The translations under genes and the position numbers were made by a program. DNA of 26,132 bases from a virus: positions 1 to 26,132 of the IMG/VR virus record IMGVR_UViG_3300042504_000415. One strand, given 5' to 3'. Of the stretch, positions 7,869 to 11,164 are shown piece after piece. Below the pieces are notes generated by a model. That model was not told the DNA's origin. It worked only from the letters and a program-made list of their open reading frames with translations, and did no database searches. Numbering within the stretch: the first letter of the stretch is position 1; the number at the start of each line of letters is the position of its first letter.

Positions 7869-8206
7869 TCGCAGCCAGTTACTACGTAATGAGGATCATC
7901 AACGCCGTCGGGATAGTCGTCTTCGTCTTCGTCTTCGTCTTCGTCTTCGTCTTCGTCATTTGCGATCAAATGATTAGCAATTGCCCACCAGTCAACATCG
8001 GACAAGAAAGCTCTTGCGTAATCACGCGCAAGACCTTCGTTTGACGTTGCGTCGATTAGTTCTTCAGCATATTCGGCGCACGCGTCTTTTAATTCCGCAA
8101 CGGAAAATACAGTGCGTCCTGTTAAGTCGCGTGCTGTCATGCCATCAAATATTTCAAGATTGACGCGCCAAGTCGCGTAGTTCGTCCATCCGTTGTAAGT
8201 TGCCAT
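7865..8206 (-). CDS. Phage protein of the NGWxNYxTWxVNL type with a poly-(Glu-Asp) tract (113 aa)
   Basis: This 113-aa protein has the N-terminal NGWTNYATWRVNLEIFDG signature of a widespread phage and plasmid family (DUF7249-like, function unknown). The middle is helical and rich in Asp/Glu, and near the C-terminus it carries an uninterrupted Asp-Glu alternation (DEDEDEDEDEDED) encoded by a 6-bp repeat at 7918-7957. The acidic tail could mimic DNA or compete for a basic host protein; that is a guess. The start at 8206 has AAAGGA about 10 nt upstream. It overlaps the next gene as ATGA. Confidence 0.75.
   Translation of the reverse strand: MATYNGWTNYATWRVNLEIFDGMTARDLTGRTVFSVAELKDACAEYAEELIDATSNEGLARDYARAFLSDVDWWAIANHLIANDEDEDEDEDEDEDDYPDGVDDPHYVVTGCE
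7918..7957. repeat. 6-bp tandem repeat coding for Asp-Glu alternation
   Basis: The plus strand reads CGTCTT six times followed by CGTC, which on the minus strand is GAAGAC repeats coding Glu-Asp. Because the unit is a multiple of three, slippage changes the length of the acidic tract without breaking the frame. Confidence 0.9.
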
Positions 8207-8525: not shown

Positions 8526-8704
8526 GATTGGCAAGTTTAAAGGCGTGAATTGCCCAGGAAATGGGGGGTGGATTGCCAATGATTGCCAATGTTAAATCGT
8601 TGATTTACAAGGAGATTACACGGCTATTGGCAATATTGTCATTTATTTTCTATTGCAAGGAGCTATCAAAGTGGGGCTAGGCTAACTTAAAAGGCATGAC
8701 AATT

Positions 8705-8793
8705 TTGCCAAGATTGCCAATGATTTTGGGCTTTTCGCCCCCATCGCCCCCCGCGCTTATTCCCCCGCCCAAAATCATTGGCAATCTTGGCAA
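8705..8793. repeat. 27-bp-arm inverted repeat (potential large hairpin)
   Basis: The 27 bases at 8705-8731 are the exact reverse complement of 8767-8793, with a 35-nt C-rich spacer (8732-8766). Five more outer pairs (8698-8702 with 8794-8798) form if two T residues bulge. Each arm carries a TTGCCAAG and a TTGCCAAT box, so the hairpin displays the same boxes as the rest of the array. It has no T run of a terminator. Confidence 0.9.
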
Positions 8794-8802
8794 TTGTCTT
8801 GT

Positions 8803-8929
8803 CATTGCCAAGATTGCCAATGGTTACAAAGTCTAGAGCATGACCCAAACTGCCAATGGTTACAAATAGCAGATCATTGCCTAGATTGCCAATTGCTACA
8901 AACTTTGGAGCATGACCCAAATTGCCAAT
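8803..8929. repeat. Duplicated 72-bp unit carrying 36-bp-spaced boxes
   Basis: The segment 8803-8857 and the segment 8875-8929 agree at 48 of 55 positions, giving a 72-bp repeat period. Each unit contains CATTGCC, AGATTGCCAAT, TACAAA and GAGCATGACCCAAA. Inside the unit the box GCCAAT recurs every 36 bp, so the 72-bp period is two 36-bp steps. Confidence 0.85.
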
Positions 8930-9057
8930 CGGTCGGCGGTCGGTCGGCGGTCGGTCGGCGGTCGGTCGGCGGTCGGTCGGCGGTCGGTCGGCGGTCGGTC
9001 GGCGGTCGGTCGGCGGTCGGTCGGCGGTCGGTCGGCGGTCGGTCGGCGGTCGGTCGG
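8930..9057. repeat. 11-bp minisatellite, eleven perfect copies
   Basis: CGGTCGGCGGT is repeated eleven times without a single mismatch (8930-9050), followed by a partial copy (CGGTCGG, 9051-9057). The unit is not a multiple of three, so it is not coding. The period is close to one DNA helical turn, and the plus strand is a series of GG tracts that could form two-layer G-quadruplexes. It starts directly on the last TGCCAAT box. Confidence 0.95.
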
Positions 9058-9149
9058 GGCGGCTTGGCTTGAGGCCCCCCGGGTAGGGCCGACGGCCTGG
9101 CAGGTCAGGGCCGGAGGGTCCACAAGAAATTTTTTTATTTTTATTAAAT

Positions 9150-9708: not shown

Positions 9709-11164
9709 AGACGACCCGGAAGCGTTTGTATTGTTCGCCTTCCCGTGGGGGCAGGAGAACACGCCGCTGGCGAAGTACGACGGCCCGCGCATGTGGCAGC
9801 GACAGGTGCTGCGCGACATCAAGGCGCACATACAGGAGAACAAGGGTAAGGTAGACATGGACACGCTGCGAGAGGCAGTCAGTTCAGGTCGAGGGATCGG
9901 TAAGTCGGCGCTGGTGAGCTGGCTGATTATGTGGATGCTGTCCACACGGATAGGGTCAAGCGTAATTGTGAGCGCTAACAGTGAGGCGCAGCTACGGTCG
10001 GTGACATGGGGCGAGCTAACTAAGTGGTCTACGATGATCATCAACGCGCACTGGTGGGAGATCAGCGCAACCAAGCTGCAACCGGCTAAGTGGCTATGCG
10101 ACATCGTGGAGCGTGACCTACGGAAGGGAACGCGCTACTGGGCCGCAGAGGGTAAGTTGTGGTCGGAAGAAAACCCTGACAGCTACGCAGGGGTGCACAA
10201 CCATGACGGCATGATGCTGATCTTTGATGAGGCGTCAGGTATTCCTGACGGCATCTGGTCGGTGGGGGCTGGGTTCTTTACAGAGAACATATTAGATAGG
10301 TATTGGTTCGCGTTCAGTAACCCGCGACGCAACACGGGGTACTTTTTTGAGTGCTTCCACGCCAAGCGTGACTTCTGGCACACGAGGCAAGTGGACGCAA
10401 GGACGGTTGAGGACACCGACAAGCAGGTGTATCGACAGATCATTGAGGAGTACGGTGAGGACTCAAGCCAGGCGCGGGTCGAGGTGTACGGTGAGTTTCC
10501 ATCAAGTGGTGACGATCAGTTCATCTCGCCAAGCCATGTGGCTGACGCTGCCGCCAGACCTCGGTACAAGGACGAGACTGCGCCGATCGTGATCGGGGTC
10601 GATCCAGCACGAGGTGGGGCGGACTCGACAGTGATCGCGGTGCGGCAGGGGCGTGACCTGGTGGCGATCCATCGGTATCATGGCGAGGACACGATGACGA
10701 TCGTGGGTCGGGTGATTGATGCGATTGAGCAGTACAAGCCAACGCTCGTGGTGCTGGACGAAGGTGGGCTAGGGTACGGTATATTAGATAGGCTACACGA
10801 GCAGCGCTACAAGGTGGTGAGAGGGGTGAACTTTGGTTGGAAGGCAAAGAACCCTGTGATGTACGGTAACAAGCGGGCCGAGCTGTGGGGCACGATGAAG
10901 GAGTGGCTTAAAACTGCTTCCATTCCGAACGATAGGGCGTTAAAGTCTGATCTGGTTGGGCCTACCATAAAACCCAATTCGTCGGGTACAATTTTCTTGG
11001 AAGGCAAAAAGGAAATGAAAGCCCGAGGATTAGCATCACCCGACGCTGCTGACGCACTGGCAGTAACGTTTGCATTTCCTGTCGCGCACAGGCAGTATAC
11101 TGAAAAGCCTACTAATCGTGCGTATAACGCTAACGGCGTAACGACATCTTGGATGAGTGCTTGA
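9638..11164 (+). CDS. Terminase large subunit (ATPase and nuclease)
   Basis: This 508-aa packaging motor protein has both halves intact. The ATPase has a Walker A-like SSGRGIGKS (82-90, Lys89), a Walker B LIFDEAS (Asp197, Glu198) and a coupling motif FSNPRR. The RNase H-like nuclease has Asp322 in GVDPARGG, Asp374 in VVLDEGG and Asp469/Asp472 in SPDAADA. It cuts concatemeric DNA and pumps it through the portal. The start at 9638 lies within the small subunit gene; a later ATG at 9680 is possible. The stop overlaps the next ATG as TGATG. Confidence 0.95.
   Translation: MQKPIYNPEDEQLLMTRLWSPAIKDDPEAFVLFAFPWGQENTPLAKYDGPRMWQRQVLRDIKAHIQENKGKVDMDTLREAVSSGRGIGKSALVSWLIMWMLSTRIGSSVIVSANSEAQLRSVTWGELTKWSTMIINAHWWEISATKLQPAKWLCDIVERDLRKGTRYWAAEGKLWSEENPDSYAGVHNHDGMMLIFDEASGIPDGIWSVGAGFFTENILDRYWFAFSNPRRNTGYFFECFHAKRDFWHTRQVDARTVEDTDKQVYRQIIEEYGEDSSQARVEVYGEFPSSGDDQFISPSHVADAAARPRYKDETAPIVIGVDPARGGADSTVIAVRQGRDLVAIHRYHGEDTMTIVGRVIDAIEQYKPTLVVLDEGGLGYGILDRLHEQRYKVVRGVNFGWKAKNPVMYGNKRAELWGTMKEWLKTASIPNDRALKSDLVGPTIKPNSSGTIFLEGKKEMKARGLASPDAADALAVTFAFPVAHRQYTEKPTNRAYNANGVTTSWMSA

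Follow-up and report, generated by a model that had tools for sequence, protein, structure and literature searches.

Multiple short protein-binding sites lie near the terminase genes in the pac site of phage P1 and the cosB site of phage lambda, where they are functionally required. The 11-bp tandem array described here, just upstream of the gene for the terminase small subunit (TerS) in an IMG/VR virus record (G000), is unlike these sites in that it appears dispensable in relatives; the whole 26,132 bp of this record were analysed and are referred to as the window. The pac region of SPP1 and SF6 contains direct repeats (boxA-C) around the terS start, and the array is alike in presenting direct repeats just upstream of terS (PMC4737164). 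However, the repeats are largely retained between the pac regions of SPP1 and SF6, which share 80% identity, whereas the array here is absent from relatives despite near-identical TerS, and its pac counterpart, if any, would be a conserved 70-bp element lying beside it. The array also resembles VNTR or minisatellite loci of bacteria and viruses in its exact short units, in a copy number which varies between near-identical genomes, in a compound unit built from a shorter one and in being non-coding. It differs from these loci in its position in a phage spacer beside a candidate packaging element and in its recurrence there with unrelated units. In a literature search of partial coverage, no paper describing such arrays at terS was found.

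Terminase genes and upstream region of the window

The window encodes a P22-type portal protein, a family A DNA polymerase, a RepB-type primase and a terminase large subunit (TerL) with 36–38% identity to the TerL of epsilon15-type phages (Table 1). The ORF directly before TerL gave no match by sequence to PHROG, Pfam, NCBIfam or PDB at the usual thresholds; members of its family weakly match three PHROG TerS families (best E 0.002). An AlphaFold2 model built from 18 relatives (mean pLDDT 65.5, with 77–92 over residues 11–90) placed helices, mostly confident, over residues 16–94. Foldseek returned no significant match for this model, and a second look with VIA-align ranked two Sf6 TerS chains first (Z 6.7, 58 residues, rmsd 2.5), followed by phBC6A51 (Z 4.8) and TetR-type structures (Z 4.2 or less). 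With its position, an N-terminal HTH and a helical hairpin, this ORF is predicted with moderate confidence to encode TerS.

Table 1. Features of the terminase region of the window.
Feature	Position	Strand	Description and basis
TTGCCAA box array	8564..8933	no strand	Operator or origin candidate; layout only
11-bp tandem array	8929..9057	no strand	TCGGTCGGCGG, 11.7 exact copies; Tandem Repeats Finder; variable or absent in relatives, least conserved stretch
Conserved element	9073..9142	+	C-run, AGGGCCGAC block, GGAGGGTCCACAA block, A/T tract; candidate pac or cos site; conservation in relatives
TerS (terminase small subunit), 163 aa	9217..9708	+	TerL overlap, helical model, Sf6 TerS structural match, weak PHROG matches
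TerL (terminase large subunit), 508 aa	9638..11164	+	PHROG phrog_2, E 3.6e-43

The array is located in a 752-bp stretch without a credible gene, between the end of a minus-strand ORF (8464) and TerS. Tandem Repeats Finder reported a period of 11 with 100% match and no indels, corresponding to eleven full units (8929–9049) and 8 further bases, and the array was found once in the record. This agrees with the eleven perfect G-rich repeats of a preliminary description, which had set the start one base later, at 8930. The placement given there, adjoining the box array and about 160 bp from the TerS start, was also borne out, with one base shared between the left edge of the array and the last TTGCCAAT box and with 160 bp from its right end to the ATG. 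Period-11 runs in the window reach 129 bp, whereas 200 sequences simulated under a first-order Markov model gave runs of 26 bp at most when periods 4, 8 and 11 were considered. The array is very probably non-coding, as had been suggested: PHROG gave no match for the overlapping 87-aa ORF, frames across it are open because a stop-free 11-mer stays open in all frames, and its sequence is not conserved among relatives.

The adjoining TTGCCAA boxes occur as direct and inverted copies, partly with a spacing of 36 bp, a layout from which an operator or origin may be proposed. Inside this box array lies a perfect 27-nt inverted repeat (8705–8731 and 8767–8793, 35 nt apart; span 8705–8793), which could represent a cruciform, an operator or an origin. 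Upstream of TerS at loci L064, L066, L112, L141–L153, L158 and L206, the boxes were noted to be replaced at the same place by other repeated words (TGACCCAAATGACC, TGTTTACATAAACA, GAACAGCTGTTCATATG, TGACAATT and TTGGGTCAT). The DNA-binding partner seems to change between lineages.

Comparison of the array among relatives

A scan of viral contigs yielded 80 loci encoding relatives of TerS, of which about 60 showed 93–100% TerS identity. Within the window's own clade, the upstream region was found in three states: with the 11-mer array (the window, L004 and L058), with a TCGG array containing scattered CGG (L005 and L008), or without an array (L006, L007, L009–L014 and others). L004 and L005 share their TerS sequence with the window, and the TerS of L006 differs by a single residue (E121D); L006, L010 and L011 (TerS 97–99% identical) have no array. 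The arrays of L005 and L008 comprise 34–35 TCGG units mixed with CGG and have their right junction in common with the 11-mer arrays. In the matching spacer of the sister clade, 8-mers of CCGACCGC or CGACCGCT are present in 3–17 copies in the opposite orientation, or there is no array. In an alignment of 42 relatives, conservation within the region was lowest at the array, with an identity of 0.06–0.33 over its interior compared with mostly 0.78–1.0 at the neighbouring element (9077–9146).

These comparisons bear on the earlier proposal that the array may be a pac site bound by TerS, each copy being close to one helical turn. In a reading of this kind, the subunits of a TerS ring would sit on phased 11-bp copies and headful packaging would start there. 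Such a role would suit the position just upstream of terS, the period and the direct repeats known from the SPP1 pac region (PMC4737164). However, a pac repeat should be kept with the same TerS, and L006, with one TerS substitution, is without an array; it is the neighbouring element which is conserved instead, and the DNA-binding domain of SF6 TerS showed low specificity for the repeats (PMC4737164). Because the array is absent, or replaced by arrays of other periods, in close relatives whose TerS is near-identical, a role as pac site finds no support and is considered very unlikely. The phasing is likewise not kept, relatives showing periods of 4, 8, 10 or 16 or no array. The preliminary description would have abandoned its pac reading if the array were absent in close phages that package normally; the absence is seen in L006, and normal packaging there is assumed. 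As judged from these sequences, TerS probably does not need the array.

The window and L004 show 99.93% and 99.64% identity in two segments over 8 kb, and the array of L004, with 4.7 copies versus 11.7, lacks exactly 77 bp, or 7 units. A difference in whole units between near-identical genomes is the behaviour of a slippage minisatellite or VNTR, with the caveat that all contigs are metagenome assemblies in which arrays near read length can be mis-assembled, and part of the length difference could therefore be artefact. That the array or its length is altogether a product of assembly is barely credible, even though a 129-bp perfect repeat is near a common short-read length and the L206 contig ends inside such an array, since the independent contigs L004 and L058 share unit and junctions and the 10.7 copies of L058 are interrupted by 1-bp breaks.

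Recurrence of tandem arrays in the spacer

The occurrence of arrays with a period of 13 or less and a score of 50 or more was determined over 65 contigs. Between −500 and −150 relative to TerS, such arrays account for 7.3% of bases (in 19 contigs of 65). The corresponding values are 0.17% at −5000 to −760, 0 between 0 and +5000, and 0.9% in a further gap which is roughly non-coding. Their units differ: the spacer of L248 (TerS 50%) contains TCGG/CTGG arrays together with seven copies of CTGCGTGC, that of L140 contains CGATCT and GCGTCGACCG arrays and that of L156 a 31-mer array, with a CCGACCGC array being present at the matching contig end of L206 (polymerase 61%). The presence of different units at one place in several lineages suggests that the spacer has been repeatedly colonised by arrays. 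This clustering may partly reflect relaxed constraint, the spacer being the longest non-coding stretch, with no hotspot required.

The TCGG unit was considered as a marker of the family and rejected, (TCGG)6 alone being a common microsatellite in unrelated viral contigs. Other repeats were also observed in the region. The window carries 6.8 copies of TCGTCT at 7917–7957, with equal copy number in L004 and L058. About 460–530 bp upstream of TerS, L058 has 7.9 copies of TCGCCCCCA, of which the window has about two.

Strand folding and proposed expansion by slippage

The single-stranded G-rich strand of the array was predicted to fold at −30.2 kcal/mol compared with −24.5 for shuffles (z −3.7), forming a wobble-paired hairpin of C-G pairs with G-T wobbles, and the C-rich strand at −9.3 kcal/mol compared with −17.1. 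In the sister clade this asymmetry again goes with the G strand (−44.1 and −70.1 kcal/mol on the minus strand); it is also present in L248 and is weak in L005. Slippage involving a self-pairing strand is therefore plausible. The hairpin energy could alternatively point to the G strand itself, as a hairpin or as a quadruplex (the preliminary description had suggested one of two layers), being a replication or transcription signal, and G4Hunter gives +0.81 in the window; but with the G strand on opposite strands in the two clades (G4Hunter −1.4 on the same strand for the sister-clade arrays) and with array-less relatives in existence, a signal of this kind is highly improbable.

Expansion by slippage had been offered in the preliminary description as the alternative to a pac site, and it is supported by the differences in unit number, by the mixed 4-mer/11-mer arrays and by the repeated appearance of arrays of other units at this position. 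The array would probably have started from a short CGG/TCGG-rich seed which grew into a TCGG microsatellite. Loss of one T would have given the compound unit TCGG-TCGG-CGG, which would then have been amplified by whole units, and a G-rich strand which folds on itself, with a C-rich strand which barely does so, would favour expansion in lagging-strand or repair synthesis. The array of L005, in which TCGG runs are mixed with single CGG units, would look like an intermediate between TCGG and this compound unit. Against slippage stand the fold of L005, which is little better than shuffles (z −1.0), and the CGGTCGG/CCGACCG word which the sister-clade arrays and the window array have in common, making a shared function possible. 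On balance, the array is probably a replication-slippage minisatellite in a length-tolerant non-coding spacer, dispensable for TerS, with the adjacent 70-bp element more likely to provide the packaging signal.

The conserved element beside the array

The element consists of the blocks AGGGCCG(A/G)C and GGAGGG(T/G)CC(A/G)CAA, 30–35 bp apart, followed by the A/T tract, and it is preserved together with its spacing in most relatives with TerS identities as low as 53%. In OR003940 (TerL 74%), the TerS of which is only 28% identical and unrelated, a pattern allowing up to three mismatches gave no match. The same strict pattern also missed MW202483 (TerS 54%), in which a degenerate form was recognised by eye (GGGACTGCACGAAATTTTTATTATTTT). 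An apparent co-inheritance of element and TerS would fit a packaging site, either pac or cos. From its conservation, the element would be a better pac or cos candidate than the array. Contig ends were scattered in a contig-end pile-up and contigs of up to 34.6 kb span the element; metagenome contigs cannot decide on a cos site. No similar element was detected in annotated phages (all E above 1), no intrinsic terminator was found at the element, its fold was no better than shuffles and GC skew showed no clear switch at the region. The host search returned MAG fragments only. Rfam gave only sub-threshold matches, of miRNA type and one of lncRNA type, which were taken as chance.

A link between element and array may be sought in the word CGGTC: of 47 element cores, 35 contain it or its complement (compared with a mean of 8.9 for shuffles), as does every array unit, and the sister-clade arrays carry the word on the other strand. 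By multiplying the CGGTC of the element, the arrays could then offer optional sites to which TerS, an initiator or a regulator would bind, with copy number tuning the start of packaging or replication. This is possible, if unlikely: many close relatives are array-less, the units of other lineages (CGATCT, CTGCGTGC) are without the word, and the cores are related by descent, so their enrichment is not independent evidence. It is also unlikely that the spacer is a true mutational hotspot in which terminase cutting or origin activity beside it would repeatedly generate arrays de novo, those multiplying CGGTC being kept for their effect on the start of packaging or replication.

Further changes were observed around the element. 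Upstream of TerS in L009, L016 and L046, its A/T tract (CACAAGAAATTTTTTTATTTTT) is duplicated or triplicated. MW202483 (L112) has an annotated homing endonuclease gene (10712–11158) between the place of the element and TerS, and an HNH-like reading frame, seen by eye, lies just upstream of TerS in L143–L145, apparently in the same interval. In L165, a run of more than 30 G is present at the element, about 90–130 bp upstream of TerS and near the contig start, which may be a poly-G sequencing artefact.

Significance of the region

The locus is a warning that a tidy repeat array next to terS should not be taken for a pac site on sight, a question which is settled here by the relatives. Of most further interest are the conserved element next to the array and the recurrent instability of the spacer. 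The 70-bp element is a candidate packaging element, apparently undescribed, in a family of uncultured podoviruses, and the recurrent tandem-repeat site beside it could serve for studying slippage in phages.
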